Shown piece after piece: positions 1 to 21,800 of a stretch of 32,173 nucleotides of DNA. Source of the stretch: Gammaproteobacteria bacterium (GTDB taxonomy: Bacteria > Pseudomonadota > Gammaproteobacteria > GCA-001735895); the NCBI GenBank assembly GCA_029862005.1, contig JAOTYD010000037.1, positions 1 to 32,173 of the forward strand. Direction: 5' to 3'. Below the pieces are notes generated by a model, which had not been told where the DNA came from, ran no database searches, and saw nothing but the letters and a program-made list of their open reading frames with translations. Position numbers and translations under genes: made by a program. How positions within the stretch are numbered: the stretch's first letter is position 1; every line of letters begins with the position of its first letter.

Positions 1-1314
1 CCAGAGATGGACCTGTTTCCGTGGGACCTGGCGCGTTTCGGTGCCTGGGCGACGAAACCCTTTACCCGGGCGCGCACACTGGATCAGTATGCGCATCGAT
101 TCAAGATTCATTTTCCCTACGAAGAGTGCGAGGCCGGCCGTCCGATCAAGACCCGTCCCGTGTACGAACGCCAGCAGGCGCTCGGTGCGGTGTTTGGCCT
201 CAGTTATGGTTACGAGCATCCGTTGTGGTATGCGCCCGCGGGCATGCAAGCGATCGAAACCTACGGCTTTGAGCGTCAAAACTGGTTCGACCCGGTTGCC
301 GAGGAATGTCGTGTCCTGCGTGAAGCAGTTGGTATCATCGACGTATCCAACTTTGCCAAGTACCGGGTTCGTGGTGCCGGCGCGGCTGATTATCTCGATC
401 ACCTGGTCACCAACCACCTGCCCACGGAAAACGGGCGCTCATGCCTGACGCCGATGATCGGGTTGCGCGGTGGTATCGCCGGTGACTTTACCATCACCAG
501 GCTGGATGATGAGGATTTTCTGATGATCGGTTCCGGTATCGCCGAACGCTATCACCAGCGCTTTTTTAACATGGTGGCCCGCGACGATAGCGTTTCTTTC
601 GAGAGCTTTACCGAGGCCTGGGGTGGATTCAATGTCGCCGGTCCCAACGCACGCAAACTGCTGCAACAATTGACCGATGCCGATTTGTCGAACGCCGGTT
701 TTCCGTTCATGTGCAATCGTAAAATCCGCGTGGCCGGTCTCGATGCCGTCGCGATCAGGGTCTCGTTTACCGGGGATCTCGGCTGGGAGATATACGTGCC
801 GCTCGAGCATCAGCTAGCGCTTTACGAGGCCTTGCTGGAAAAGGGCGACGCACTCGGTGCAAAACCGGTCGGTGGGCGTGCGCTACTGTCATTACGGGTC
901 GAGAAAGGCTACGGCAGCTGGAGCCGCGAATATTCGCCCGAATACTGGCCGCAGGAAGTCGGGCTGGAGCGCTTGATCAAGCTCGACAAACCCGAGTTCC
1001 TGGGGCGCGAGGCTTATCTCGCGATCAAGGACAAGCCGCCGCGCGAAAAACTCGTTGTCGCCAGGGTTGAAACTACCAATGCCGATGCCAATGGTGGCGA
1101 GCCGGTATTCCTGGTCGATGGTACCCCGGTAGGTCGGGTCAGCTCGGGCGCATTTGGACATAGCGTTGGTGCCTCGATTGCGCTATGTTTCATTAAGACC
1201 GATCACGCTGTCGCCGGCACCGAACTCGACATAGCGATTCTGGGGGTCCCGCATCGCGCTGTCATCCTCGAAAAACCGCCTTTCGATGCCAGTGGCGAAC
1301 GTTTGAGAGCATAA
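1..1314 (+). CDS. Dimethylglycine/sarcosine dehydrogenase-like protein, GcvT-fold C-terminal part (5' truncated by window)
   Basis: The reading frame is already open at base 1, so only the last ~437 residues are here; the ATG at 7 is probably internal. The visible part has the linker typical of dimethylglycine/sarcosine dehydrogenases (start of the fragment to about residue 75) and then a GcvT/aminomethyltransferase-like domain to the end, including an EECRVLREAVGIIDVS-type segment at residues 95-115 of the ATG-numbered fragment. The missing N-terminal part in this family is a DAO-type FAD domain of about 400 residues. Such enzymes oxidatively demethylate N-methylated glycines or related compounds and pass the methyl carbon to tetrahydrofolate. 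Its stop lies two bases before the dddP-like ATG, so the two are almost certainly co-transcribed. The exact substrate cannot be told from this fragment. Confidence 0.85.
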   Translation, partial: PEMDLFPWDLARFGAWATKPFTRARTLDQYAHRFKIHFPYEECEAGRPIKTRPVYERQQALGAVFGLSYGYEHPLWYAPAGMQAIETYGFERQNWFDPVAEECRVLREAVGIIDVSNFAKYRVRGAGAADYLDHLVTNHLPTENGRSCLTPMIGLRGGIAGDFTITRLDDEDFLMIGSGIAERYHQRFFNMVARDDSVSFESFTEAWGGFNVAGPNARKLLQQLTDADLSNAGFPFMCNRKIRVAGLDAVAIRVSFTGDLGWEIYVPLEHQLALYEALLEKGDALGAKPVGGRALLSLRVEKGYGSWSREYSPEYWPQEVGLERLIKLDKPEFLGREAYLAIKDKPPREKLVVARVETTNADANGGEPVFLVDGTPVGRVSSGAFGHSVGASIALCFIKTDHAVAGTELDIAILGVPHRAVILEKPPFDASGERLRA

Positions 1315-1316
1315 CC

Positions 1317-2648
1317 ATGGCCAGTAACCCTTACTCGATTCCAAATCCCAAGGTCAATCCCGCAAGCCGGCCCGCGATGCGCCCGGACAATACACCGGAC
1401 GACAACGATCGCATCGAAATCGGCCCTACGCCACTGGCCTACGCGGAATGGGAGGACGCGGGATTGCAATGCCCGGACCTGCCGGAAATGCGGCAGTATC
1501 GTCTCGATAGAATAGTCGCGGGTCTTATCGCCAGCGATCTCGACGCGGTGCTGCTATTCGATCCACTGTCGATTCGCTACGCGACCGATACCACGCACAT
1601 GCAATTGTGGAATGCGCATAATCCCTTCCGCGCCTGCATGGTCACCAGCGATGGTCACATGGTGTTATGGGAATACGGCGGGTACGCCTATCTGTCGGAA
1701 TACAATCCATTGGTGCGCGAGGTACGCTTTGGTGCATCGTTCTTTTATTTCGCCACCGGCCAGCGCACCGAGGAAAAAGCGGGACTGTTTGCCGGCCAGG
1801 TCGTGGACCTGCTGCAGGAACGTGTCGGTTCCGGTCGCCGGGTTGCGGTCGACAAGATCCAGATCGCCGGTCTGCGCGCGCTCGATGAAGCCGGCGTCAA
1901 GGTCATGGACGGTGAGGAGCTGATGGAGCACGCGCGCTCTATCAAGGGGCCGGATGAAATCCTGGCGATGCGCTGCGCGATTCATGCCTGCGAGGCTTCG
2001 ATCGCGGAAATGCGTGAACTGACCCAGCCCGGGATGACTGAAAACGATGTCTGGGCGGAACTGCACAAATCCAATATACGCCGCGGCGGCGAATGGATCG
2101 AAACGCGGATCTTATCGACCGGGCAGCGCACCAATCCGTGGTTCCAGGAATGTGGTCCGCGTATTATCGGCAACAATGAAATCCTGGCCTTCGATACCGA
2201 TTTGATCGGCTGTTACGGCATGTGTACCGATATTTCCCGCACCTGGTTTATTGGTGACGGGCAGCCCACGCAACGACAGAAGGATATTCACAAGCTTGCG
2301 CACGAGCACATCATGACCAATGCCGATATCGTCAAGCCGGGCATGAGCTTCCAGGAACTGACTGAGCAAGGCCATCACTTGCCGGATATTTATATCCCGC
2401 AACGTTACGGTTCAAAATTTCATGGTGTCGGACTGTGCGATGAATGGCCTGCCATCAAGTACCCGATCGACTGGGAGGAGCGCGGCTACAGCGGCGTCCT
2501 CGAACCCGGCATGATGCTCTGTGTCGAAGCTTATGTCGGTGAAGTGGGTGGACCGGACGGCATCAAGCTCGAGGATCAACTGCTGGTGACCGAAGACGGC
2601 TACGAAAACCTGGTGGTTTGTCCGTTTGATTCTTTGTTGATGGCTTGA
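1317..2648 (+). CDS. dddP: DMSP lyase DddP (M24 peptidase-fold metalloenzyme)
   Basis: Predicted to cleave dimethylsulfoniopropionate to dimethyl sulfide and acrylate in the cytoplasm. The 443-residue length and the N-terminal DNTPDDNDRIEIGPT stretch (24-38) match DddP as I remember it. Metal ligands fit D293, D305, H369, E404 and E419, which is a constant offset of -2 from the D295/D307/H371/E406/E421 set I recall for roseobacter DddP. Y364 and D375 fall at the same offset from the substrate-binding Tyr366 and catalytic Asp377. Ordinary M24 aminopeptidases such as PepP have different ligand spacing. The ATG at 1317 follows the upstream stop by two bases, so translation may be coupled; no strong ribosome-binding site is seen. 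Known roseobacter cases are alphaproteobacterial, so transfer is possible. No acrylate-detoxifying genes (acuI, acuN/K) are in the window. Confidence 0.88.
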   Translation: MASNPYSIPNPKVNPASRPAMRPDNTPDDNDRIEIGPTPLAYAEWEDAGLQCPDLPEMRQYRLDRIVAGLIASDLDAVLLFDPLSIRYATDTTHMQLWNAHNPFRACMVTSDGHMVLWEYGGYAYLSEYNPLVREVRFGASFFYFATGQRTEEKAGLFAGQVVDLLQERVGSGRRVAVDKIQIAGLRALDEAGVKVMDGEELMEHARSIKGPDEILAMRCAIHACEASIAEMRELTQPGMTENDVWAELHKSNIRRGGEWIETRILSTGQRTNPWFQECGPRIIGNNEILAFDTDLIGCYGMCTDISRTWFIGDGQPTQRQKDIHKLAHEHIMTNADIVKPGMSFQELTEQGHHLPDIYIPQRYGSKFHGVGLCDEWPAIKYPIDWEERGYSGVLEPGMMLCVEAYVGEVGGPDGIKLEDQLLVTEDGYENLVVCPFDSLLMA

Positions 2649-2699: not shown

Positions 2700-4235
2700 A
2701 TGAATATTTTATTTATCACCGCGGATCAATGGCGCGGCGAGTTTTTGTCGGCCCTCGGGCATCCGCATGTCAAAACCAGCAACCTGGACGCACTTGCCAG
2801 CGAGGGCGTGTTATTCAAGGATCATTATGCCCAGGCGACGCCCTGCGCACCCAGCCGCAGCTCGATGCACACCGGCATGTACATGCAGAGTAATCGATGT
2901 GTGGTTAACGGTGCACCATTGGACAGCCGCTTTACCAACTGGGCATACGAAGTGAAAACTGCCGGGTACGAGCCATCCTTGTTTGGTTATACCGATTCCG
3001 CGATCGATCCACGCGGACTCGACCCCGACGACCCGCGGCTCAAGCACTATAGCGAACCCCTGCCCGGTATCGGTCTGTACACCCCGATGCGTGACGAGGT
3101 ATCGGTCGAGTGGGTCGAGTATTTGCGCGACAAGAATTATCCCTTGCCGGAGCGACCGTGGAGCCTGTACTCAGAACTGCGCGAGGGCGTCGACTGGGCG
3201 GCAGGTGGTGATACGGTACTGCCGCTCGCGATAGACCGCGAAGATCATGAAACTCACTACATGGTCGATCGTTGTATCGACTGGATCAAATCACAGTCAA
3301 AACCCTGGATTACGCATTTATCGTTATTGCGACCGCATCCGCCGTTAGCCGCACCCGAACCCTACAACAGTCTGTACGATCCTGAGGAGATGCCTGAACC
3401 GTCTCGTCGCGAATCACCCGATGAAGAAGCCGCACAGCACCCGCTACTGGATTATTTCATCAACCACAGCCGCTTTCGCGCGCCCGATTCGCGGCGCCAG
3501 ACGCAGCAGGATATGGTCAATTACTTCGGCCTGATGCAGGAAGTTGACGACAACCTGGGTCGTCTTTTCGATGCGCTCAAGGCCGGGGATGAGTGGGAGT
3601 CGACGCTGATTATTTTCACCTCGGATCACGGCGAACAACTGGGCGACCACTGGTTGATGTCCAAGCTCGGCTATTTTGATCAGTCTTATCACATTCCGTT
3701 GATCATTCGCGATCCGCGCAGCGAAGCCGATGCTTGCCGGGGTCAGCAAATCCGGGGCTTCAGCGAAAATGTTGACGTGATGCCAACCATGCTCGACTGG
3801 CTCGGCATCGAAATCCCGAACCAGTGTGACGGTTTCTCGCTGCTGCCAGTATTGCGCAACGGCGAAATGCCTTCCGGATGGCGCGAGCAGGCTTTCTGGG
3901 AGTGTGATTTTCGCAACGTCCGGGACGATAGCCTGGAACGGCACCTTGGTCTAACGCTACATCAGTGTAACCTGTCGGTGATTCGCGACCATCAATATAA
4001 ATATGTCCACTTCGGTGCATTGCCGCCACTGTTTTTTGATCTGCAGCAGGATCCCGGCGAATTCGTCAACCAGGCGCAAAATCCGGAGTACCAGGCCCTG
4101 GTGCTTGAGTATGCGCAAAAAATGTTGTCACTGAAGATGAATCATGCCGAGCGTGGTTTGACTGAAATAATGCTGGGCGAGGGTGGAGCAGTTACACGCC
4201 GTGCGCCGTTGCGTAACCTGGCTTCAGGCGTTTAG
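2700..4235 (+). CDS. Phosphonate monoester hydrolase / sulfatase family protein
   Basis: Alkaline-phosphatase-superfamily hydrolase of 511 residues. It carries the CAPSR motif (C49-R53), the recognition site for conversion of Cys to formylglycine, the usual catalytic nucleophile. Metal-site residues are visible as D9 and D309-H310 (TSDHGEQLGDH), with H213 in RPHPP. The order and spacing of motifs, and the C-terminal YKYVHFGALPPLFFD stretch, resemble the Rhizobium/Burkholderia phosphonate monoesterases more than choline sulfatases. These enzymes are promiscuous towards phosphonate monoesters, phosphodiesters and sulfate esters, so the natural substrate is open. It starts 51 bases after dddP on the same strand and may share its transcript. 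Its 3' end overlaps the convergent response-regulator gene by 12 bases. A formylglycine-generating enzyme is not in the window. Confidence 0.85.
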   Translation: MNILFITADQWRGEFLSALGHPHVKTSNLDALASEGVLFKDHYAQATPCAPSRSSMHTGMYMQSNRCVVNGAPLDSRFTNWAYEVKTAGYEPSLFGYTDSAIDPRGLDPDDPRLKHYSEPLPGIGLYTPMRDEVSVEWVEYLRDKNYPLPERPWSLYSELREGVDWAAGGDTVLPLAIDREDHETHYMVDRCIDWIKSQSKPWITHLSLLRPHPPLAAPEPYNSLYDPEEMPEPSRRESPDEEAAQHPLLDYFINHSRFRAPDSRRQTQQDMVNYFGLMQEVDDNLGRLFDALKAGDEWESTLIIFTSDHGEQLGDHWLMSKLGYFDQSYHIPLIIRDPRSEADACRGQQIRGFSENVDVMPTMLDWLGIEIPNQCDGFSLLPVLRNGEMPSGWREQAFWECDFRNVRDDSLERHLGLTLHQCNLSVIRDHQYKYVHFGALPPLFFDLQQDPGEFVNQAQNPEYQALVLEYAQKMLSLKMNHAERGLTEIMLGEGGAVTRRAPLRNLASGV

Positions 4236-5132
4236 ACCTTTCCTGATGGTGGCGAGCACTTCGTTGCCGTTACCGATGTATTCGAGGTCGTCGAAGCTCG
4301 ACAAACGCGCCACAGCGATACCACGGCCATGCGGGTCAAAGGCGCGATCAGGATCGAAATCGAGGTAAGGCGTCCAGTCAAATCCCTGCCCCTGGTCACG
4401 TATCCTGATCTGCACCGTATCGTTGGCGACATTAAACTCGAGTTCGATATAGGTGCCGGCGTTTTCGCTCGCGCCAAGGCGGCGCTCGACTTCAAGTTGC
4501 CAGTTTCCGTTGCGCATCAGCCTGCTTTTTTCGGGATAACCGATTTTCAGATTGCCGTGTTCAAGTGCGTTTACAAGCAGTTCGGAAATTCCGGTAACCG
4601 CACGTTGCGGTTCGGGGCACAGGTGAGCTACCTGCAAGGCAACCAGGTTGCATTGTTGCAGGTTGTGGATGCGGAAACGCCCAAAGGTCATGAGCTTGAA
4701 GATCTGGCGTCCCGCCCTCAACGATTCCAGCAATGATTTCTCATGCAGCCGGTCGTTTACTGCCCCCCGGATCACCGATTTGAGGATTTCGCCATCATAG
4801 GGTTTGGTCAGGTAATAGTAGGCACCGGCCCTTAATCCCGCGACGATTTCCTGGTTCTCGGCTTTCGCGGTTTGCATAACCACCGGCACATGCTCCAGTT
4901 CATTGGTGCGTTTTATATTCGCCAGTAACTGCATGCCATCCATGCCGGGCATCCTGCTATCCAGCACGATGGTATCGTAGCGTTCCGGGTCTGCTTGCAG
5001 TATCGACCAGGCTTCACGGCCATCGGCTGCCCTGACCAGTTCGTAGTTCTCTTCTTCGAGATGTTCGCAGATAATGTCGAGATTGATGGGCTCATCATCG
5101 ACAATCAGTACGGTGGCTTCTGTGCTATTCAA
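4224..5132 (-). CDS. Response regulator with REC receiver and HATPase_c (RsbW/anti-sigma-like) output domain
   Basis: The N-terminal receiver (about 1-125) has the acidic pair D12/D13, phospho-acceptor D58 (VLDSRMPGMDG), T88 and K110 (YLTKPYDG). The C-terminal half (about 150-302) is a GHKL ATPase domain: ELLVNALEHG (184-193) as the N box, DQGQGF (246-251) as the G1 box and HGRGIAV (268-274) as the G2 box. There is no dimerisation/phospho-His domain, so this is not a classical histidine kinase; the layout resembles serine-kinase/anti-sigma outputs of partner-switching systems. The frame starts with TTG at 5132; a GGAG about 9 bases upstream on the minus strand supports it, and no ATG lies before the receiver core. 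It is tail-to-tail with the phosphonatase gene. No partner anti-anti-sigma (STAS) gene is in view. Confidence 0.87.
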   Translation of the reverse strand: MNSTEATVLIVDDEPINLDIICEHLEEENYELVRAADGREAWSILQADPERYDTIVLDSRMPGMDGMQLLANIKRTNELEHVPVVMQTAKAENQEIVAGLRAGAYYYLTKPYDGEILKSVIRGAVNDRLHEKSLLESLRAGRQIFKLMTFGRFRIHNLQQCNLVALQVAHLCPEPQRAVTGISELLVNALEHGNLKIGYPEKSRLMRNGNWQLEVERRLGASENAGTYIELEFNVANDTVQIRIRDQGQGFDWTPYLDFDPDRAFDPHGRGIAVARLSSFDDLEYIGNGNEVLATIRKGLNA

Positions 5133-5283: not shown

Positions 5284-5365
5284 AACTAAGAATAATCGAC
5301 ACTGGTATGAAATGATTTGATGGCAGTCTGACCCTGATAAGAATTCTGAAAAACCGTTTGGATTG

Positions 5366-6664
5366 ATGATAGATAACTCATTTTGCAGCGATGATTTCAA
5401 GGCGCAATGCTACTGGTGGGATCAAACGCCCAGGCCAGCGATAGAAACAGAGGATTTGCCCGACAAAACCGATGTGCTGGTAATCGGCTCGGGCTATACC
5501 GGGTTGCATTGCGCGCTGCAAACCGCGGCGGCTGGACGACAGACCACGGTGATTGATGCAGATGCGGCAGGCTGGGGCTGCAGCACGCGTAACGGCGGCC
5601 AGATCAGCGGTGAAATAAAACCCGATTATGAAGAGTTGCGCGATCGGTATGGTGATGACCGCGCCCATGCGCTGATAAAAGAAGCCCGCGGCGCACTCGA
5701 ATGGCTTGGCGATTTTATATCACAGCAGGATATCGACTGTGACTACCTGCGTTGCGGACGCTTCCTCGCTGCCCATAGCCCGCGCCAGTTTAAAAAACTG
5801 GTGGACCGTGCTCGAAACCAGCCTCGTGGTCTCGAGCAGAATCTGCAGATCGTTTCGGCACGGGATCAGGTCAGCGAAATCGATAGTCCCTGTTACCATG
5901 GCGGCCTGGTCATAGAACGGCACTGTTCGCTGGATCCGGCCAAATACCATGCGGGCCTGATGCGCAAAGTCCTGCATAACGGGGCGCAGGTAGTCGACTA
6001 CTGCCAGGCGACAGCCATTGAGCACGTTGCCGAGGGATTCAGGGTCAGTACCAGCCGCGGAACGATTCAGACCCGGGAACTGGTGATTGCAACCAACGGC
6101 TACACCGGCACGGTTACGCCATGGCAACGTCGACGGATTATTCCGATTGGCAGCTACATGCTCGCAACTGAGCCGATGGATCCGGCGCGCCTGGATCGGT
6201 TGATGCCGCGGCAGCGGGTGTTTAGCGATACCCGCAAGATCGTGGTTTATTTTCGGCAGTCCCCGGATGGTCGCAGCTTGCTGTTTGGCGGCAGGGTTTC
6301 GGTATTCGAGTCCGATCCGGTCAAGAGTCTACCCGCGCTGCGACAGGAAATGCTGCGCATCTTTCCACAGCTCGAGGATGCCAGGATCAGCCATACCTGG
6401 ATGGGTTTCGTCGGTTACACCTTCGACACCCTGCCGCATCTCGGGATCGAGGATGGAATTCACTACGCGATGGGCTATTGCGGATCGGGAATCTGCCTGG
6501 CGAGTTACCTGGGTAACCGGCTCGGTTTGCAATTACTCGGAAACGAGGAGGGTCATAGCGCGTTCAACCACCCGGGATTCCAGACGCGACCGCTGTATAG
6601 CGGCAAACCCTGGTTCCTGTCGGCTTCGGTGCGCTACTACCAGGTGAAGGACCGGATTGGCTGA
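5366..6664 (+). CDS. FAD-dependent oxidoreductase, DAO family (gamma-glutamylputrescine oxidase PuuB/OrdL-like)
   Basis: Flavoprotein of 432 residues. The dinucleotide-binding motif VLVIGSGYTGLHCA is at about 38-50 and GWGCSTRNGGQISG at about 69-82, a pattern typical of PuuB/OrdL-type amine oxidases. A C-terminal WMGFVGYTFDTLPHLG segment closes the DAO fold. Such enzymes oxidise a secondary or gamma-glutamylated amine with FAD and O2, giving an aldehyde or imine and H2O2. TTG at 5363 and ATG at 5366 are adjacent in frame; I take the ATG. It faces the phytanoyl-dioxygenase gene with a 27-base gap. A PuuA-like glutamine-synthetase-family ligase lies far away at 30.3-31.7 kb, so a joint glutamylated-amine pathway is possible but not shown. 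Confidence 0.87.
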   Translation: MIDNSFCSDDFKAQCYWWDQTPRPAIETEDLPDKTDVLVIGSGYTGLHCALQTAAAGRQTTVIDADAAGWGCSTRNGGQISGEIKPDYEELRDRYGDDRAHALIKEARGALEWLGDFISQQDIDCDYLRCGRFLAAHSPRQFKKLVDRARNQPRGLEQNLQIVSARDQVSEIDSPCYHGGLVIERHCSLDPAKYHAGLMRKVLHNGAQVVDYCQATAIEHVAEGFRVSTSRGTIQTRELVIATNGYTGTVTPWQRRRIIPIGSYMLATEPMDPARLDRLMPRQRVFSDTRKIVVYFRQSPDGRSLLFGGRVSVFESDPVKSLPALRQEMLRIFPQLEDARISHTWMGFVGYTFDTLPHLGIEDGIHYAMGYCGSGICLASYLGNRLGLQLLGNEEGHSAFNHPGFQTRPLYSGKPWFLSASVRYYQVKDRIG

Positions 6665-12107: not shown

Positions 12108-13076
12108 ATGAAAGTATTAAGCAAAGTCGCTCTGGCCTCGCTGTTGGCGGCGTCGCTGAGCAGCGGCAGCGCACTGGCGGCCGGTCAACAGTTTATTTCG
12201 ATCGGCACCGGCGGTGTAACCGGGGTGTACTACCCCACGGGTGGCGCCATCTGCCGACTGGTCAACAAGAACCGCAAGGAGCACGGCATTCGTTGCTCGG
12301 CTGAATCTACCGGTGGTTCCATTTACAACATCAACACGATTCGCGCCGGTGAGCTCGAATTCGGTGTTGCCCAGTCTGACTGGCAGTATCACGCCTACAA
12401 CGGCACTTCCAAGTTTGCCGACCAGGGCGCTTATAAAGACCTCAGAGCGGTATTTTCGGTTCATCCTGAGCCGGTTACCGTTATTGCCAGCGATGGTTCC
12501 GGTGTCAAAGAACTTTCCGATGTCAAAGGCAAGCGGATGAATATCGGCAATCCGGGTTCCGGAACCCGCGGTACCTGGGAAGTTATCGAGGAAGCCATGG
12601 GCTGGACTCGCAATGACCTTAAACTGGCCGCTGAAATGAAATCTGCGGAAACCGGCCAGGCCGTGTGCGACGGCAAGATCGATGCTTACTTCTGGCTGGT
12701 GGGACATCCGTCGGCGCTGACCCAGGAGTCACTGGCAACCTGTGATGCGCACCTGGTGCATGTGAAAGGTGCGGCGATCGACAAACTGGTAAAAGAAAAC
12801 TCGTTTTATCGCAAGGCGACTATTCCGGCCGGTATGTATAACAACAAGGAAGATATCCAAACCTTCGGTGTGGGTGCGACTTTCGTAAGCAGCGCCTCGG
12901 TCCCGGACAACGTGGTTTACACGGTTGTCAAGGCAGTCTTCGAAAACTTCGATGACTTTAAAAAACTGCACCCGGCGTTTGCTAACCTGACTGAAAAGGA
13001 AATGATCACCGATGCCATCTCGGCACCGCTGCATCCCGGTGCGGTCAAGTACTACAAAGAAAGAGGCTGGATGTAA
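12108..13076 (+). CDS. TAXI family TRAP transporter solute-binding protein
   Basis: Periplasmic substrate-binding subunit of 322 residues. A cleavable signal peptide ends near SALA (about residue 24). The mature protein begins with the TAXI hallmark [20 protein letters not shown], followed by [22 protein letters not shown] and [21 protein letters not shown], which line the ligand pocket in this family. Known TAXI proteins bind glutamate or other small carboxylates; the ligand here is unknown. A strong ribosome-binding site (AAGGAG) precedes the ATG. It is the first gene of the operon, and a hairpin with a T-run separates it from the permease gene, which would favour excess binding protein over permease. 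Confidence 0.95.
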
Positions 13077-13092
13077 CATCCAACCGGGAAAT

Positions 13093-13130
13093 AACCAACG
13101 GGTCGCATTTGCGGCCCGTTTGGTTTTATT
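13093..13130 (+). terminator. Intra-operon terminator/attenuator between binding protein and permease
   Basis: A 14-bp, slightly imperfect stem (13093-13106 with 13111-13125; loop ATTT) is followed by TTTTATTT. It lies 16 bases past the stop of the binding-protein gene and before the permease gene. Likely a partial terminator, or a 3' stabiliser, that keeps the binding protein in molar excess. Confidence 0.75.
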
Positions 13131-13160
13131 TACCGAATAATAATAGAGGGGGGGATTGCG

Positions 13161-15797
13161 ATGGCGGAGCAAAAACAAGCCCAGAGTTTGCAGGACGAAA
13201 TTGTCGCTGCGGTCGATACCGGTGCTCGGGCGCCCATTGGATGGGAGGCAAAATTCATTGCAACCGTCACCTTCACCTGGGCGCTGTTTCAGCTTTATAT
13301 TGCCTCGAACCTGCCGTTCTGGCTCAGTGACGTCACCGGCTTTAGCCTGGTTGTAACCAACTCCAATGCGCGCCTGATTCACCTTGCCTTCGGTTTTTTC
13401 CTGGCAGCGCTCGCATTTCCGCTGTTTAAAAAGAGCTCGAAAACGTCGATCCCCTGGTACGACTGGATTCTGGCAATTACCGGCGTCGCCTGCTGTCTTT
13501 ATATCGTCGTGTTACGCAATGAAATCGCGGTACGTGCCGGCCTGCCGACGCAAGGCGACCTGATCGCGTCAACCGTGGGCATGATTATCCTCGGTATTAC
13601 CGTTTACCGGGCGCTGGGCCTGCCGCTGCTGATCGTTGCGAGCGTATTCGTCAGCTACGTGTTTTTCGGCAATTCCGAGTCGCTGCCCGAAGCGATCCAG
13701 TGGAAAGGGGCCTCCTACGGCAAGGCCATGTGGCACTTCTGGATGCAGAACGAGGGCGTGTTCGGCGTTGCGCTCGGCGTTTCGGCTTCATTAATATTTT
13801 TATTCGTGTTGTTCGGCTCGATCCTGGAAAAAGCCGGCGCCGGTAATTACTTTATCAAGATCGCGTTCGCGCTGCTGGGCCACCTGCGCGGTGGGCCGGC
13901 CAAGGCCGCGGTCGTCGCGTCTGCGCTCAGTGGTTTGTATTCGGGATCCTCGATCGCAAACGTGGTCACCACCGGAACCTTCACCATCCCGTTGATGAAA
14001 CGCACCGGGTTCAGCCCCGAAAAGGCGGGTGCGGTAGAGGTTGCATCGTCGACCAACGGGCAGCTTACGCCGCCAGTCATGGGGGCCGCCGCGTTTCTGA
14101 TCGCCGAATTCACTGGCATCAGCTATACCGACATACTCAAGCACGCGCTGGTGCCGGCACTGGTGTCCTACATCGCGCTGGTTTACATCGTGCATCTCGA
14201 AGCGCTCAAGTTGAATTTAAAGGGATTGCCCAGGCTGCCGTCGACGAAGACGTTTGCCAGCAAACTCATCGGATTTCTCGGGGGCTTTATTGGCATCAGC
14301 ATCCTCGGAATTGCGGTGTACTACGGTCTCGGCTGGATCAAGGTCGCGGCCCCCGACTACGCCTTTGCGATCGTCGCCATCGGCTGTACTGGTGCCTACC
14401 TCTACCTGGTCTGGATTGCTTCGAAGCAGCCTGATTTGAAGGTCGATCCGCCCGATGCGCCGATTCTCGAGCTCCCCCATGCGGGTACCGTCGCGGTTAC
14501 CGGCCTTTACTTTATCCTGCCGATCGTAATCCTGATCTGGTGCATTATCATTGAGCGCCTGTCACCGGCGCTGTCCGCACTCTGGGCTACGGTAGCCATG
14601 ATCGTGGTCGTGCTGACGCAGGATGCCCTCAAGGCTTTCTTTCGTGGCAGCGGTAACTATGGCGCAGCATTCAAGGTCGGCCTGGGTCACTGGATTGAAG
14701 GCATGATCGCCGGTTCCAGGAACATGATCAGTATCGCGGTCGCCACTGGCGCCGCCGGCATAATCGTCGGCACCATTTCGCTAACCGGTGCGCACCAGGT
14801 GGTTGGAGAGTTCGTCGAATTCCTGTCGGGTGGTAGCCTGATCCTCATGCTGATCCTGGTGGCGCTGATGAGCCTGATTCTCGGCATGGGCTTGCCGACC
14901 ACGGCTAACTATATCGTGGTGTCATCGCTGATGGCACCGGTTATCCTGGTGCTCGGTGCCAAGAGCGGGCTGATCGTGCCGCTGATCGCGGTGCACCTGT
15001 TCGTGTTTTATTTCGGCATCCTGGCGGATGACACGCCGCCGGTCGGGCTTGCGGCATTTGCCGCGGCGGCGATCTCCGGGGGTGACCCGATCAAGACCGG
15101 TATCCAGGGATTTGCCTACGACATTCGAACCGCGCTGTTACCGTTCCTGTTTATCTTCAATACCGAACTGTTGTTAATCAATGTCGGGGTGGTGAAGGCC
15201 TTTTTCGTGTTCGGGGTCGCGGTGGTGGCGATGATGCTGTTTGCATCCGCCACCCAGGGCTACATGTTTACCCGCAACCGCAAATGGGAATCGGCACTAT
15301 TGCTATTAATCGCGTTTACGCTGTTCCGACCGGGTTACTGGCTGGACAGGGTTTCACCGCCTTACGATATCTATAATCCCGATGTCGTCTACGAGGTTGT
15401 CGATGAGGTGGGACCGGATGGCTTGCTTATGATTATTGTAAGCGGTCCGGATTTCGATACCGGCGAGATCGCATCTACAACGGTGCTGGTTAACCTGGGA
15501 CAGCCGGCCGATGCGATCGAAAGATTACGCAAGGCTGGATTGACGGTTACCGTCGCGGATGGACGCGCAATCATCGAAGAGCCTTTCCCCGGTACGCCAT
15601 ACTTCGAGAGTATCGGTAAGTCTTTTGATTACTACGGTGACGAACCCGTGCAAATTGCCGAGATCCGCCAGCCCGCCGATCGTATCGCGAAGGAAGTGTT
15701 TTACATTCCCGCGGTATTGCTACTGGCATTTATCATGTTTCTGCAAAAGCGTCGTGCTCGTGATGAACAGGTTGCGGAGGTCGGGGCGCCAGCCTGA
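13161..15797 (+). CDS. TRAP transporter permease, fused DctQ-DctM (TAXI type) with C-terminal DUF3394-like domain
   Basis: Inner-membrane permease of 878 residues driving Na+-coupled uptake with the TAXI binding protein. The first ~180 residues form the DctQ-like small subunit and about 190-700 the DctM-like large subunit, with the signature GLYSGSSIANVVTTGTFTIP and STNGQLTPPVMGAAAFLIAE, then GMGLPTTANYIV. After the last core helices a hydrophilic segment (about 730-850) containing PYDIYNPDVVYEVVDEVGP resembles DUF3394; it is followed by a final membrane helix and a basic tail. A strong purine-rich ribosome-binding site (GAGGGGGGG) precedes the ATG. Confidence 0.95.
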   Translation: MAEQKQAQSLQDEIVAAVDTGARAPIGWEAKFIATVTFTWALFQLYIASNLPFWLSDVTGFSLVVTNSNARLIHLAFGFFLAALAFPLFKKSSKTSIPWYDWILAITGVACCLYIVVLRNEIAVRAGLPTQGDLIASTVGMIILGITVYRALGLPLLIVASVFVSYVFFGNSESLPEAIQWKGASYGKAMWHFWMQNEGVFGVALGVSASLIFLFVLFGSILEKAGAGNYFIKIAFALLGHLRGGPAKAAVVASALSGLYSGSSIANVVTTGTFTIPLMKRTGFSPEKAGAVEVASSTNGQLTPPVMGAAAFLIAEFTGISYTDILKHALVPALVSYIALVYIVHLEALKLNLKGLPRLPSTKTFASKLIGFLGGFIGISILGIAVYYGLGWIKVAAPDYAFAIVAIGCTGAYLYLVWIASKQPDLKVDPPDAPILELPHAGTVAVTGLYFILPIVILIWCIIIERLSPALSALWATVAMIVVVLTQDALKAFFRGSGNYGAAFKVGLGHWIEGMIAGSRNMISIAVATGAAGIIVGTISLTGAHQVVGEFVEFLSGGSLILMLILVALMSLILGMGLPTTANYIVVSSLMAPVILVLGAKSGLIVPLIAVHLFVFYFGILADDTPPVGLAAFAAAAISGGDPIKTGIQGFAYDIRTALLPFLFIFNTELLLINVGVVKAFFVFGVAVVAMMLFASATQGYMFTRNRKWESALLLLIAFTLFRPGYWLDRVSPPYDIYNPDVVYEVVDEVGPDGLLMIIVSGPDFDTGEIASTTVLVNLGQPADAIERLRKAGLTVTVADGRAIIEEPFPGTPYFESIGKSFDYYGDEPVQIAEIRQPADRIAKEVFYIPAVLLLAFIMFLQKRRARDEQVAEVGAPA

Positions 15798-15837
15798 ATT
15801 GATACTGCATCAACTTAACGCTGTGGCCGGGTAATAG

Positions 15838-16683
15838 ATGTCGCCATTTATCGTCGGCCTGGTGCTGTTGGCCGCACTGCTGCATGCCGGCTGGAACGCG
15901 ATGGCGAAGTCGGGCGGAACACCGCAGTATAGTATCGCTTCCTACCGACTGGTAAATGCAGTCTGGTGCCTGCCGTTACTGTTTCTGTTCCCGTTGCCGC
16001 TGGCCGCCAGCTGGCCTATGTTGCTGGCTTCGACGCTGATCCATACGGCCTACTATTACACCCTTTCGAAGTCTTATGGTAGCGGCGACCTGTCCCAGGT
16101 TTACCCGCTGTTTCGCGGTCTTGCCCCGGTGCTGGTGGTGCTCGGTGCAGCACTGCTGGCCAGCGAGTACTTGCCGATGGGGGCGATGCTCGGTATCGGG
16201 CTCGTCAGTGCAGGGCTTATCAGCATAGCGTTCAGCGGCGGCGTCCTCGGCAAGATTCCCGGCCCCGCTCTGCGTTGGGGCCTCGCAACCTCGGTGTTGA
16301 TTGCGGCCTATACCGTTGCCGACGGTATGGGGGTGCGCGCTGCCGGCAATCCGTTCAGTTATATTCTTTGGTTATTTGTATTCGAACCGATTCCAATCGG
16401 ACTGTGGTTGCTGGCAACGGACCGCAGCGGATGGTTCGGATACATGCGCGCCAAGCCGGGCAAAATTACTGCCGGTGCCCTTGCGGCGGCAACCGCCTAC
16501 GCGATGGTCATCTACGCGATGAGCGTTGCACCGATGGCTATGGTTTCCTCGCTACGCGAAACCAGTGTAATATTTGCCGCCCTGATCGGTACCCTGATGT
16601 TCCGCGAACCCTTCGGACGTCAACGCATTATCGCCGCTGCGCTGGTATGCCTCGGCGTAGTACTGATCAAGGTCCTCAGCTAA
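15838..16683 (+). CDS. DMT superfamily (EamA) transporter
   Basis: Small inner-membrane permease of 281 residues with about 10 transmembrane helices in two EamA repeats. The first repeat begins at FIVGLVLLAALLHAGWNAMAK and contains YYTLSKSYGSGDLSQVYPLFRG; the second ends with ETSVIFAALIGTLMFREPFG. EamA proteins typically export or import amino acids and metabolites; the substrate here is unknown. It follows the TRAP permease by 40 bases and precedes the PLP-enzyme gene by 15, so it probably shares the operon. The ribosome-binding site is weak. Confidence 0.9.
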   Translation: MSPFIVGLVLLAALLHAGWNAMAKSGGTPQYSIASYRLVNAVWCLPLLFLFPLPLAASWPMLLASTLIHTAYYYTLSKSYGSGDLSQVYPLFRGLAPVLVVLGAALLASEYLPMGAMLGIGLVSAGLISIAFSGGVLGKIPGPALRWGLATSVLIAAYTVADGMGVRAAGNPFSYILWLFVFEPIPIGLWLLATDRSGWFGYMRAKPGKITAGALAAATAYAMVIYAMSVAPMAMVSSLRETSVIFAALIGTLMFREPFGRQRIIAAALVCLGVVLIKVLS

Positions 16684-16698
16684 CGGGAGTAACCAGTA

Positions 16699-17712
16699 AT
16701 GTCGTTGACCCAAGATTTTCCGCACGTTGAACTCAGCCACAAGCCGACCCCGCTCGAGCTGTTGCAGAATGTCAGCGCCGAGTTCGGTACCAATGTCTGG
16801 ATCAAGCGCGACGATTGCACCGGCCTCGCCTTTGGTGGCAACAAGAGTCGCCAGCTCGAATTCTATATCGGCCAGGCGTTGCAGCAGGGCGCCGATACGC
16901 TGCTGACGACCGGTGCGGTACAGTCCAACCATGTGCGCATGACGGTCGCCGCCGCACGCAAGATGGGTCTCGAGGTCGAGGTTCAGCTCGAACACCGCGT
17001 CGATCGCGAGCAACCGGAGTACCACCAGTCCGGCAATCCTTACCTGGTCAAGTTGATGGGTGCAAAGATCCACTATTACCCGGAAGGTGAAGACGAGGCG
17101 GGTGCCGACCAGGCGCTTGAGACGCGCGCCGTGGAAATTGCGCGGCAGGGCGGTAAGGCCTACGTCATTCCACTATCGAATGTGCACACGCCTTACGGCG
17201 CGCTCGGCTATGTCGATGGCGCCGAGGAGCTGATGCAACAGCTCGACGAAATGCATATCAATCCGGTCGGTTTCATTGTGCCGACCGGGTCCGCGTCCAC
17301 TCATTGCGGCTTCCTGTACGGGATCAGGGCCTGTGGCAGCCAGGCACCGGTGTACGGCGTCTGCGTGCGCCGGGATGCCGAGAGCCAGCGACAGCGCGTC
17401 GGCACCAAGCTGAAAGCCGTGAGCGATACCATCGGCCGGGAGATTGATATTCCCGAAAGCGATATTCTCTGTGACGACAGCATGCTGGCACCGGGATACG
17501 GCTTGCTTAACGACGCAACGGTCGAAGCGATCAAGTTCCTGGCGCGGCGCGAGGGTATCTTGCTGGATCCAACCTACTCGGGGAAGGCCTTCGCGGTATT
17601 ATTGCAGATGCTGAAACGGGGCGAGTTTAAGCAGGATGATCACTTGGTTTTTCTGCACACCGGTGGAGCCGCGTCGCTGTTTGCCTACCCCGAGCTGGTT
17701 GAAAGTGAGTGA
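16699..17712 (+). CDS. PLP-dependent D-cysteine desulfhydrase / L-cysteate sulfo-lyase family enzyme
   Basis: Fold-type II PLP enzyme of 337 residues. The Schiff-base lysine is K49 in FGGNKSRQLEF, preceded by WIKRDDCTGLAFGG. TGAVQSNHVRMT (about 76-87) would contact the cofactor and carboxylate. FLHTGG close to the C-terminus is the phosphate/pyridine region. The family covers D-cysteine desulfhydrase, ACC deaminase and CuyA, the cysteate sulfo-lyase that releases sulfite and ammonia. The middle region (QLEHRV, YPEGEDEAGAD) reminds me of CuyA more than of DcyD, but this is from memory. Co-location with an uptake system and a 2-hydroxyacid dehydrogenase fits catabolism of a sulfur-containing amino acid. 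A good ribosome-binding site (GGGAG) precedes the ATG. Confidence 0.82.
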   Translation: MSLTQDFPHVELSHKPTPLELLQNVSAEFGTNVWIKRDDCTGLAFGGNKSRQLEFYIGQALQQGADTLLTTGAVQSNHVRMTVAAARKMGLEVEVQLEHRVDREQPEYHQSGNPYLVKLMGAKIHYYPEGEDEAGADQALETRAVEIARQGGKAYVIPLSNVHTPYGALGYVDGAEELMQQLDEMHINPVGFIVPTGSASTHCGFLYGIRACGSQAPVYGVCVRRDAESQRQRVGTKLKAVSDTIGREIDIPESDILCDDSMLAPGYGLLNDATVEAIKFLARREGILLDPTYSGKAFAVLLQMLKRGEFKQDDHLVFLHTGGAASLFAYPELVESE

Positions 17713-17797
17713 TCACGGCTATTTTTCGATAGACGCGGAATTTATAGATACCTACAATCTAGCGTTTTTTAAAGATGCAACCTGAGGAGAGACCTCG

Positions 17798-18769
17798 ATG
17801 TCAAAACCTAAAGTAATCGTTACCCGTCGTTGGCACCCGGAAGTCGAGGCGGTGCTGGTGGAGCGGTTCGATACCCGGCTCAATGACGATGATCACCCGA
17901 TGTCGGTTGCCGAGTTGCAGGATGCGCTGCGTAGTGCCGACGCGGTGTTACCGACCGTGTGTGACAAGGTTACCGCCGAGGTACTCGGTGCCGATAATAT
18001 TCGTGCCAGGATTCTCGGTAGCAACGGTGTTGGTTTCAACCATATTGACCTGGAAGCGGCCAAAGCTACTGGCCTGACCGTTACTAACACCCCGGAAGTG
18101 CTTACCGATTGCACCGCAGACCTGGTAATGACCCTGTTACTGGCGGTGGCAAGACGGGCAGGCGAGGGCGAACGTCACCTGCGCAACGGCGAATGGACCG
18201 GTTGGCGCCCGACCCACATGATGGGTACCAGCGTTACCGGCAAAACCCTGGGTCTGATCGGTATGGGGCGTATTGCACGTGCGGTTGCGGCGCGTGCCGC
18301 GCATGGTTTCAATATGAAGATTATATTTCATGATCCGTTTCCGCCACCTGCCGAGGCCATCGCGGGCCTGAATGCGACCGAGTGCGCATCGCCCGAAGAA
18401 GTGTTTCAACAGGCCGATTTTGTTTCGCTGCATTGCCCCGGTGGCAAGGAAACCTATCACCTGATCGGCGCTGATGCGTTCAGGGCGATGCAGCCCGGTG
18501 CTTTCCTGATTAATACGGCTCGCGGCGATGTGGTCGACGAGGCTGCGCTGGTTACGGCGCTGGAGAATGGTGAAATTGCCGGTGCCGGTCTCGACGTATT
18601 CGAGAAAGAGCCCGCGGTAACCGAGGGATTGCTTAAGCTTGAGAATGTCGTGCTGTTACCGCATCTCGGCAGCGCCACCCGGGAAACCCGCAAGGCCATG
18701 GGGATGCGCGTGGTCGAAAATATTGAAGCCTTCTTCGCCGGTGACACCCCGCGCGACAAACTGGTTTAA
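17798..18769 (+). CDS. D-isomer-specific 2-hydroxyacid dehydrogenase (glyoxylate/hydroxypyruvate reductase-like)
   Basis: Soluble NAD(P)H-dependent reductase of 323 residues. The Rossmann motif is GLIGMGRIARAVA (152-164). The catalytic set is R242 (NTARGDVVDE), E271 (DVFEKEP) and H289 (LPHLGSAT), all in place. The acidic D179 at the end of the second beta-strand (IIFHDP) suggests NADH rather than NADPH. It interconverts a 2-oxo acid such as glyoxylate, hydroxypyruvate or a sulfonated analogue with the D-2-hydroxy acid. The ribosome-binding site (GAGGAGAG) is strong and an 85-base gap precedes it, so it may have its own promoter. Confidence 0.92.
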   Translation: MSKPKVIVTRRWHPEVEAVLVERFDTRLNDDDHPMSVAELQDALRSADAVLPTVCDKVTAEVLGADNIRARILGSNGVGFNHIDLEAAKATGLTVTNTPEVLTDCTADLVMTLLLAVARRAGEGERHLRNGEWTGWRPTHMMGTSVTGKTLGLIGMGRIARAVAARAAHGFNMKIIFHDPFPPPAEAIAGLNATECASPEEVFQQADFVSLHCPGGKETYHLIGADAFRAMQPGAFLINTARGDVVDEAALVTALENGEIAGAGLDVFEKEPAVTEGLLKLENVVLLPHLGSATRETRKAMGMRVVENIEAFFAGDTPRDKLV

Positions 18770-18848
18770 ATCAACAACCCGAAATCTGCAACGCCAGGAA
18801 TCGGCATCGCGGAGCAACAGGGAGTAAACGGCCGCCGCTAACAACCCG

Positions 18849-21800
18849 ATGAACAACAAGCGAAAATGCCAATTCTGGATCGATCGCGGCGGTACTTTCA
18901 CGGACGTGGTGATGCGTGCGCCTGATGGGACCTTGAAAACCCACAAGTTGTTGTCGGAAAATCCTGAACAATATGCAGACGCCGCGCTGCAGGGTATCCG
19001 CGACCTGCTAGGCGTTTCCAGTAACGTCCCGATCCCTGCCACCGCCATCGAAGCGATAAAGATGGGTACCACCGTGGCCACCAACGCGCTGCTGGAGCGC
19101 AAGGGCGACCGCACGCTCCTGGTCATCACGCAAGGCTTCGGCGATGCACTTCGCATCGGCTACCAGAACCGCCCCCGCCTTTTCGACCGTCATATCGTAT
19201 TACCGGAAATGCTCTACGAGCAGGTTATTGAAGTAACCGAAAGGGTTACCGCCAGTGGAGATGTACTGCAAGCCCTGGACCGGGAAACTGTAACAGGTGA
19301 TCTGCAGGCTGCCTACGACAACGGTATTCGTTCGGCAGCCATTGCCTTTATGCATGGCTACCGTTTCCCGGCGCATGAGCAGGCAGTCGCCGCAATCGCC
19401 CATGAAATCGGCTTCACCCAGGTGTCCGTCTCGCATGAAGTCAGTCCGCTGGTAAAACTGGTGTCGCGTGGTGACACAACCGTGGTGGATGCCTACTTGT
19501 CGCCGATCCTGCGCCGTTACGTTGAAGGGATTGCCAACGAGATAGCAGGTGATATTGTGGATGCAACCCGGTTGATGTTCATGCAATCCAATGGTGGCCT
19601 GACCGACGCCAGCCTGTTCCAGGGCAAGGACAGCATTCTGTCCGGTCCCGCCGGAGGCGTTGTCGGCATGGTCCGTAGCGCTGTGATGGCAGGCTTTCAC
19701 AAGGTAATCGGCTTTGACATGGGTGGTACCTCTACCGACGTGTCCCACTACGATGGCGAGTACGAGCGCGAATTTGAAACGCTGGTGGCGGGTGTTCGTA
19801 TGCGCGCGCCGATGATGCGCATCCACACCGTCGCCGCCGGCGGTGGTTCTGTCCTGCATTTCGACGGTGCGCGCTATCGCGTCGGACCGGATTCTGCTGG
19901 TGCCAATCCCGGGCCGGCATGCTATCGCCGTGGTGGTCCCCTGGCGGTTACAGACTGCAACGTGATGCTGGGCAAAATCCAGCCGAAATATTTTCCCCGT
20001 GTCTTCGGGCCGAACGCCGATGAAATGCTGGATGTCGAGATCGTGCGCGACAGGTTCAAGGTGCTGGCCGATGATATTTCAAAAGCCAGCGGACAATTGA
20101 CCACGGCGCAAGAGGTTGCCGAAGGCTTCCTCAAGATTGCCGTTGAAAACATGGCCAACGCCATCAAACAGATATCCGTGCAACGCGGCTATGACGTCAC
20201 GGAATACACCCTGAATTGCTTCGGGGGTGCGGCCGGGCAGCATGCCTGCCTGGTTGCCGACTCGCTGGGTATGAAGCGGGTCTTCCTGCATCCTTTTGCA
20301 GGCGTCCTGTCGGCTTATGGCATGGGTCTGGCCGATATCAGGGCGATGCGTGAGCAGACGGTGGAAATACCGCTGACACCCGAAGCCCTGGAACCCCTCG
20401 GGAAGACCCTGGATGTCCTGGATGCAGCAGCTCGATCGGAAGTTGTCAATCAAGGCGTGCCCGACGCCAATATCGACGTGGTTCGTAAGATTCATCTTCG
20501 TTACGAGGGCACCGATACCCTGCTAATCGTCAACTTTGCCGGCCTGAACGCGATGATCGCCGAATTTGAGAAAGCTCACATGGGCCGATTCGGCTTTAAC
20601 GCGCCTGACCGTGCCCACATTGTCGGCACCGTGTCGGCCGAAGCGATTGGCCTGATGGAGCGTGCCGAAGATAACACCATCGAGGCTGCACCCGATAACT
20701 CCGCAGCGGAAATACTGGACACCGTGTCTCTCTATTCCGGTGGCGAAACCCACCAGGCACCAGTCTATGATCGTGACGTCCTGAAATCGGGACAACAGGT
20801 AAACGGCCCTGCCATTATCATTGAAAGCACGGCGACCACCCTGGTCGAGCCAGGCTGGCAGGCAACCACGACGTCCATGGGCCACCTGGTATTGAAACGC
20901 GTCATCCCGCTGCCGAGCCGTGTCGCTATCGGCACGGACCATGGCGTGGCAGGTGACAGGGGCGCCGATCCGATACTTCTCGAAATCTTCAACAACCTGT
21001 TTATGTCCATTGCCGAACAGATGGGGGCGACACTTGCGAACACGGCTTATTCCGTCAACATCAAGGAACGGCTCGACTTCTCCTGTGCCATCTTTGACCG
21101 GGATGGCAACCTGGTAGCCAATGCACCCCATATGCCAGTGCACCTTGGCAGCATGGGCGAGAGCATCAAGACTGTCATTCGCGAACGCGCTGACACCATC
21201 AAACCCGGCGATGTATATGCCCTCAATGCGCCCTATAACGGTGGTACGCACTTGCCAGATGTAACGGTGATATCCCCCGTATTTGATGAGGCCGGGTCGG
21301 AGTTGTTGTTCTTCGTCGCCTCGCGAGGTCATCATGCCGATATCGGCGGCATTACGCCAGGGTCCATGCCCGCCAACAGCACAACGGTGGAAGAAGAGGG
21401 CATATTGATCGATAACTTCCTGCTGGTTGAGAAGGGAAGGTTACGCGAGCAAGCTCTTATCGAGTTGCTGGGCAGCGGTAAATACCCGGCTCGAAATCCG
21501 CATCAGAACGTGGCTGACATGTCAGCCCAGATTGCCGCCAACGAAAAAGGCGTGCAGGAACTTCGCAAGATGGTGGATCATTTCACACTGGGAACAGTCA
21601 ATGCTTATATGCGCCATGTACAGGACAATGCGGAAGAATCCGTGCGCCGGGTGCTGGGTGTCCTCAAGAATGGCGCTTTCAGGTACGAGTTGGACCAGGG
21701 TCACCATATTCAGGTAGCAATAGCCATCGACGAGAAAAATCGAAAAGCGGTAATCGATTTCACCGGAACATCGGATCAGTTGAACAGCAATTTCAATGCA

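Follow-up and report, generated by a model that had tools for sequence, protein, structure and literature searches.

What does a DddP-family gene do when it stands immediately downstream of a gene for a dimethylglycine dehydrogenase (DMGDH)-like demethylase, and is its product a DMSP lyase? The window analysed here, 32,173 nucleotides long, is the entire contig C37 (G000:C37:1-32173) of a 3.99-Mb genome in 105 contigs, and the demethylase ORF at its start is therefore truncated at the 5' end by the contig edge. This ORF stops with TAA at 1312-1314 and the ATG of the DddP-like ORF lies at 1317, two bases past the stop, as a sequence-only reading of this DNA had described (Table 1).

Table 1. 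Features of the window discussed in the text
Feature	Position	Strand	Basis or remark
DMGDH-type FAD/folate N-demethylase, C-terminal 437 aa, 5' part lost	1..1314	+	Pfam FAO_M, GCV_T, GCV_T_C
DddP-family M24-fold metallo-lyase (predicted), 443 aa	1317..2648	+	NF043017, 653 bits
Sulfatase / phosphonate-monoester-hydrolase-like, PehA-like, third gene of the block	2700..4235	+	Score below the PehA cut-off
Response regulator with HATPase domain, convergent; often a neighbour of the pair in the subclade	4224..5132	-	Pfam
FAD-dependent amino-acid/amine oxidase-like (DAO); frequent neighbour in the subclade	5363..6664	+	NCBIfam, Pfam
TAXI-TRAP transporter, EamA transporter, D-cysteate-sulfolyase-like PLP enzyme, 2-hydroxyacid dehydrogenase, hydantoinase A/B fusion	12108..22487		Consecutive genes; possible second catabolic cluster

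The sulfatase-like protein has an intact CAPSR formylglycine-type motif, and the DAO protein is pipecolate-oxidase- and aminophosphonate-oxidoreductase-like in NCBIfam, with scores below the cut-offs. Further along the window, the D-cysteate-sulfolyase-like enzyme scores 362 bits against a cut-off of 450.

The demethylase partner

A complete orthologue of the demethylase (L022:7578-9998, 806 aa) includes the DAO domain and carries DAO, FAO_M, GCV_T and GCV_T_C, with the FAD and folate parts in one chain. Its best PDB match is mitochondrial DMGDH (5l46, 626 bits), and with the three domains of the window piece this bears out the DMGDH-like identity proposed for the partner. The STWHAA, HQY and YY motifs and the folate Asp of the orthologue align with mitochondrial DMGDH and DMGO, and the folate Asp is also found in the window's C-terminal piece; we take these to include the FAD-linking His, the active-site His/Tyr and the folate Asp in their DMGDH roles. 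Domain order, FAD-His motif, active-site His/Tyr and folate Asp are shared by the orthologue with mitochondrial DMGDH (5l46, 4p9s) and bacterial DMGO (1pj5), whereas the window demethylase differs from these enzymes in adjoining a DddP gene, and the window itself holds the C-terminal half only. The C-terminal part is under purifying selection (pN/pS 0.08-0.20 in six comparisons of the window with relatives). The window demethylase resembles DmdA in its GcvT fold, but the DmdA model gives it 88 bits, and three related proteins 64-115, against a cut-off of 410; the complete orthologues, unlike DmdA, carry a flavin domain, and DmdAs over the cut-off are encoded elsewhere in the genome. By sequence, the partner is a predicted DMGDH-type flavin/folate N-demethylase.

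Family, fold and phylogeny of the DddP-like protein

The window protein scores 653 bits to the NCBIfam DddP equivalog NF043017 (cut-off 600), lower than the 753-881 bits of five matches from the same bacterial class that belong to clade R (see below); a DddP over the cut-off is uncommon in this class (10 of 369 sampled genomes). Its best matches among solved structures are RlDddP (4rzy; 56% identity, 561 bits by phmmer) and RdDddP (4b28; 54%). The residues that the sequence-only reading had cited (D293, D305, H369, E404, E419, Y364 and D375) are at the claimed positions; to these we add D295. In our alignment, D293, D295, D305, Y364, H369, D375, E404 and E419 correspond at a constant offset of 2 to RlDddP 295, 297, 307, 366, 371, 377, 406 and 421, and all six metal ligands (RlDddP D295, D297, D307, H371, E406 and E421) are kept.

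The spacing of these residues had also been taken as a sign of DddP. While the positions hold, their diagnostic value does not: every one of the 87 aligned rows has the metal ligands and Tyr366, including paralogues that are 36-48% identical and fall under the DddP cut-off. These residues are therefore not diagnostic of DddP, and we dropped ligand spacing as proof. Asp377 is present in 81 of the 87 rows and missing in 6. Each of the 38 rows of clade W (36 of them distinct), to which the window protein belongs, and each of the 20 rows of clade R retains the full set of ten DddP active-site residues examined; the other 29 rows keep Trp95 in 21 cases, Phe278 in 19, Asp377 in 23 and the ligands with Tyr366 in all 29. 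Judged from these sequences, Trp95, Phe278 and Asp377 (RlDddP numbers; Trp98, Phe276 and Asp375 in the window protein) discriminate DddP better than the ligands or Tyr366 do. A change specific to clade W was sought at the ten positions in the 87-row alignment, and none was found. In their available text, PMC5395565 and PMC4108388 describe the DddP roles of the ligands, the Tyr, the Asp, a Trp and a Phe, with the Asp and the Phe standing in for two peptidase histidines. The numbers 95 for the Trp and 278 for the Phe were assigned by alignment here, not by the cited papers. PDB titles name His243 and His361 of APPro as mutated positions, and the Phe and Trp numbers come from alignment to APPro and RlDddP residues.

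An AlphaFold monomer model of the protein (34 sequences; pLDDT 84.6) gives TM 0.92 to both 4rzy and 4b28, matching the DddP-type N-domain and overall fold, and TM of about 0.6-0.7 to prolidases, creatinase and ectoine hydrolase. The gene is under purifying selection (pN/pS 0.05-0.15 in six comparisons with relatives). The protein is thus like the two solved DddPs in predicted fold, length, six metal ligands, Trp/Tyr/Asp/Phe set and an NF043017 score over the cut-off, but it is 54-56% identical to them and falls in the sister clade, and its gene is coupled to a demethylase gene; clade W also has near-fixed differences, for example at Rl positions 179 (M to Q), 253 (A/S to K) and 391 (G to R).

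The first tree was built from 87 rows, 85 of them different, and carries a long-branch warning for the distant outer rows; in it the window protein falls in clade W (38 rows, support 100/100), the sister of clade R (20 rows including RlDddP and RdDddP, 100/99); the two clades join as 58 rows at 100/100. Repeating the analysis with four named plasmid proteins in addition and without three near copies gave the same split (36 rows at 100/100, 21 rows at 100/99 and 57 rows at 100/100), with some weakly supported forks within clade W. The reference DddPs in both trees were RlDddP and RdDddP; more divergent active DddPs are known from Oceanimonas (DddP2), fungi and HWgs001. The earlier label "DMSP lyase dddP" holds as a family name, and in the proposed phylogenetic comparison the protein stands in a sister clade of the two solved DddPs. 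We know of no assayed member of clade W. The DddP of HWgs001 shares 55% identity with the nearest reference DddP and is reported in PMC10989825 to cleave DMSP; as it is active and about as divergent as the window protein, we count it in favour of a lyase function for the latter. With two dmdA genes and an acuI/yhdH-type gene in the same genome, the window protein may plausibly release DMS from DMSP. Many distant plasmid relatives carry a Xaa-Pro peptidase annotation.

Conservation of the pair and its cluster

The window's subclade of clade W comprises 28 loci, including one from Arenicellales (L037) and one from a Rhizobiaceae MAG (L038), and 26 of these are readable, with at least 700 nt upstream (L059 and L065 are not; L065 and L069 are loci of a single MAG). 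In 25 of the 26, the window included, the immediately preceding gene, in the same orientation, is the demethylase, with gaps of 1-41 nt, so the neighbourhood check that had been suggested recovers the pair in relatives. The exact 2-nt gap recurs in 17 subclade loci, though both bases and the stop codon vary. L036 is the only subclade member with readable DNA and no demethylase upstream, though it does have the iron-dependent alcohol dehydrogenase (Fe-ADH) and class-V PLP genes. With a model score of 653 bits and a junction shared by 25 of the 26 readable loci, we do not attribute the DddP-like assignment and the pairing to chance.

The sulfatase-like gene is found within ~220 nt downstream in 19 of 24 readable subclade loci, again including the window; it is 1.2 kb off in L033, represented by a C-terminal stretch only in L032 and absent from L037, L038 and L059. 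Among the 18 subclade loci with at least 4.5 kb upstream, 16 have the class-V PLP gene and 14 the Fe-ADH gene (one a fragment), and a TauD-like dioxygenase, an FMO-like protein, the response regulator and DAO are frequent in the cluster. The chemistry suggested by the cluster is that of nitrogen compounds, phosphate/sulfate esters and alcohols, and in those of its genes that were scanned we recognised neither an acrylate gene nor a DMSP transporter. We rejected naming a substrate from the cluster: the NCBIfam matches of the Fe-ADH, class-V PLP, TauD-like, sulfatase-like and DAO proteins are all under the curated cut-offs, and therefore no substrate name follows. U12, a flavoprotein encoded upstream in relatives, gave a model of pLDDT 69 whose best PDB matches are mostly ornithine/lysine N-monooxygenases with TM of at most 0.52 among the best 50 rows, and is therefore flavin monooxygenase-like at most.

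A W-type DddP (at least 80% identity; one a fragment) is present in 23 of 31 searched genomes of the genus, many of them incomplete MAGs, and was found in none of 10 genomes from two sister genera of the family. Relatives with at least 80% identity are MAGs; their titles give Gammaproteobacteria, or in two cases just Proteobacteria. Elsewhere in clade W a GCV_T-family neighbour occurs in 3 of 11 loci: L039 has an unlike DMGDH (36%) ~0.6 kb upstream of DddP, L070 has two unlike DMGDHs in tandem (33% and 38%), and in L040, from an Aestuariivirgaceae MAG, a clade-W DddP is immediately followed by a TMAO demethylase (NF053776, 1255 bits, cut-off 1100) and an acyl-CoA dehydrogenase (L040:5960-11105). 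A GCV_T-family gene stands directly upstream in none of the 16 readable clade R loci, L049 having two at 3.5 and 7.9 kb, and in none of 15 other loci, the own-genome paralogue on C17 having a sarcosine-oxidase alpha gene 2.5 kb upstream. Neighbour counts across loci are not counts of independent events.

Other DddP-family loci have neighbours of their own. The Pseudomonas loci L052 and L053 have the gene directly downstream of an ABC transporter, whose binding protein in L052 is OpuAC, of glycine-betaine type; L053 has the same gene clusters. On a Rhizobium anhuiense plasmid (L147), a distant DddP-like M24 protein (41%) is encoded with a Rieske oxygenase, a 4-hydroxyproline epimerase and a glycine-betaine transporter; the nearest tree row to it is a paralogue from our source genome (G000:C6, L011), and the two are possibly an M24 family of betaine catabolism. 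On a Paracoccus yeei plasmid (L145), a DddP-annotated gene of clade R lies near a DMT transporter and hydantoinases A and B and adjoins a gene for a hydroxyproline-dehydratase-like enzyme (300 bits, cut-off 500); as the strain came from a human sample, its DMSP label is open to question.

The source genome has 24 GCV_T, 10 MTTB and 16 M24 matches in profile searches. Two dmdA genes exceed the cut-off, compared with none in 14 control genomes, and one AcuI/YhdH-family gene does so too, although the family is no specific marker of DMSP use, being over its cut-off in 2 of the 14 controls as well. The organism looks like a methylated-compound specialist, and since its genome has DMSP demethylation genes, DMSP is favoured as a real substrate of DddP. 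Six of the 10 MTTB genes have a GCV_T match no more than 5 kb away (0.6 expected). A similar clustering of M24 genes (4 of 15 within 5 kb, 0.9 expected) was set aside as weak once the pepP-gcvT neighbourhood, which we take to be the one known from E. coli, is left out. A second DddP over the cut-off (G000:C17:39442-40779; L010, L109; 636 bits, 57% identical to the first) has genes for a Cys/Met PLP enzyme and an MTTB-family methyltransferase next to it, and a soxBA-like operon lies ~2.5 kb upstream. In G265 (L111) an ORF as long as the MTTB occupies the corresponding position, and G361 (L110) has different neighbours.

Substrate and alternative explanations

In our judgement there is an even chance that the locus is a translationally coupled operon segment encoding a predicted DMSP lyase and a separate N-demethylase within a catabolic cluster for methylated osmolytes. 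To the observed family, residues, predicted fold, gap, conservation and cluster, this reading adds DMSP as the probable substrate, a putative single transcription unit and a presumed metal; the spacing by itself suggests shared regulation of the pair. The DddP protein would be a di-iron, beta-eliminating lyase that converts DMSP to acrylate and DMS and, probably, DMSOP to acrylate and DMSO, with iron holding the substrate carboxylate, Trp98 and Tyr364 facing the sulfur and Asp375 taking the alpha proton. Its partner would oxidise a dimethylglycine-type N-methyl amine and pass the carbon on to tetrahydrofolate. What links the genes would be the shared supply and regulation of onium osmolytes, with no common intermediate; we propose that lyase and demethylase are co-ordinated because both osmolyte classes arrive together. 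Three points count against this reading, namely the clade separate from RlDddP and RdDddP, the model score below that of the clade R matches and a cluster without a recognised acrylate or uptake gene.

It is possible, if doubtful, that clade W acts on another onium substrate, opening a betaine-type nitrogen compound whose N-methylated product goes to the neighbouring demethylase. Creatinase, which also has the M24 fold, feeds sarcosine oxidation, and gene pairs of creatinase and sarcosine oxidase/dehydrogenase exist; these resemble our pair in setting an M24-fold enzyme beside an FAD/folate N-demethylase, but the window protein, unlike creatinase, keeps the DddP metal and catalytic residues (TM ~0.65 to creatinase, 0.92 to DddP). 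This alternative stays because of the separate clade, the lower score and the many enzymes of amine, ester and alcohol types in the cluster. Also in its favour are the several different GCV_T-family neighbours in clade W (the DMGDH orthologue and those of L039, L070 and L040) and their absence directly upstream in clade R, DddP-family genes beside betaine-type genes such as the OpuAC-type transporter of L052 or with a Rieske oxygenase, hydroxyproline epimerase and glycine-betaine transporter, the MTTB beside the own-genome paralogue, and the Rieske oxygenase gene adjoining even the clade R gene of Loktanella. Against it stand the ten unchanged active-site positions, the lack of such a neighbour in the available flanking DNA of 8 of the 11 clade W members outside the subclade, and the fact that a chance GCV_T neighbour is not very rare, 6% of the source genome lying within 5 kb of one. 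RlDddP is also inactive on Val-Pro, as the available text of PMC5395565 states. We think it rather unlikely that clade W is a separate enzyme type in the DddP fold, a lyase for the nitrogen counterpart of DMSP or another betaine; such an enzyme might, for example, split beta-alanine betaine into an N-methylated amine and acrylate, and the amine would be demethylated by the coupled DMGDH, or by the TMAO demethylase in the Aestuariivirgaceae relative.

An M24 peptidase of Xaa-Pro type with a DddP-like sequence would account for the fold, the Pfam Peptidase_M24 match and the annotation of the plasmid relatives, but is very unlikely: as in DddP, Phe and Asp replace the peptidase histidines, the protein has the Asp that serves as sixth ligand, and over its full length the model is much closer to DddP than to prolidases. 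From its GcvT-fold kinship with DmdA, the DMGDH-like enzyme might itself be the demethylase of DMSP or of a sulfonium product, in line with the sequence-only reading's alternative of an activity on a DMSP-related compound. We nevertheless consider this highly improbable: the closest solved structures are DMGDHs, the DMGDH/DMGO amine-oxidase residues are kept in the orthologue, and two separate DmdAs are encoded in the genome. Moreover, flavin amine dehydrogenases require an amine lone pair, which a sulfonium lacks, and we know of no flavin oxidation of a sulfonium methyl. Finally, although the window is a contig of a MAG, with its first gene truncated at the end, an assembly or binning artefact is in practice refuted, as the same junction is found in 24 other loci, each from a different assembly record.

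That dddP occurs outside roseobacters, which had been thought worth recording, is already in print: the accessible parts of PMC10989825, PMC4108388 and PMC10686828 report it in Oceanimonas, fungi and a Rhodobiaceae symbiont and predict it in 4.0-15.6% of surface-sediment bacteria. While dddP in gammaproteobacteria, fungi, symbionts and sediments is known, the DMGDH-DddP pairing is not something we found in print; as the sequence-only reading had supposed, no description of it turned up in the available text of the open-licence literature, which is weak evidence of absence. PMC7487153, as far as its available text goes, names both DddP and dimethylglycine dehydrogenase, but its topic is DmdA evolution and dddP appears in the reference list only. 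Nor did we find DddP, M24 and a native substrate treated together in the open-licence literature.

In ocean metagenomes, according to PMC10686828, dddP accounted for ~65% of all ddd genes; it serves as a proxy for DMS production, sediments included. The large sister clade described here passes the standard DddP model yet sits in a nitrogen-demethylation cluster, and the dddP proxy could fail there; if its members were lyases for a nitrogen compound, sediment "dddP" counts would overstate DMS production. Alternatively, clade W may be where DMSP and betaine catabolism are wired together.
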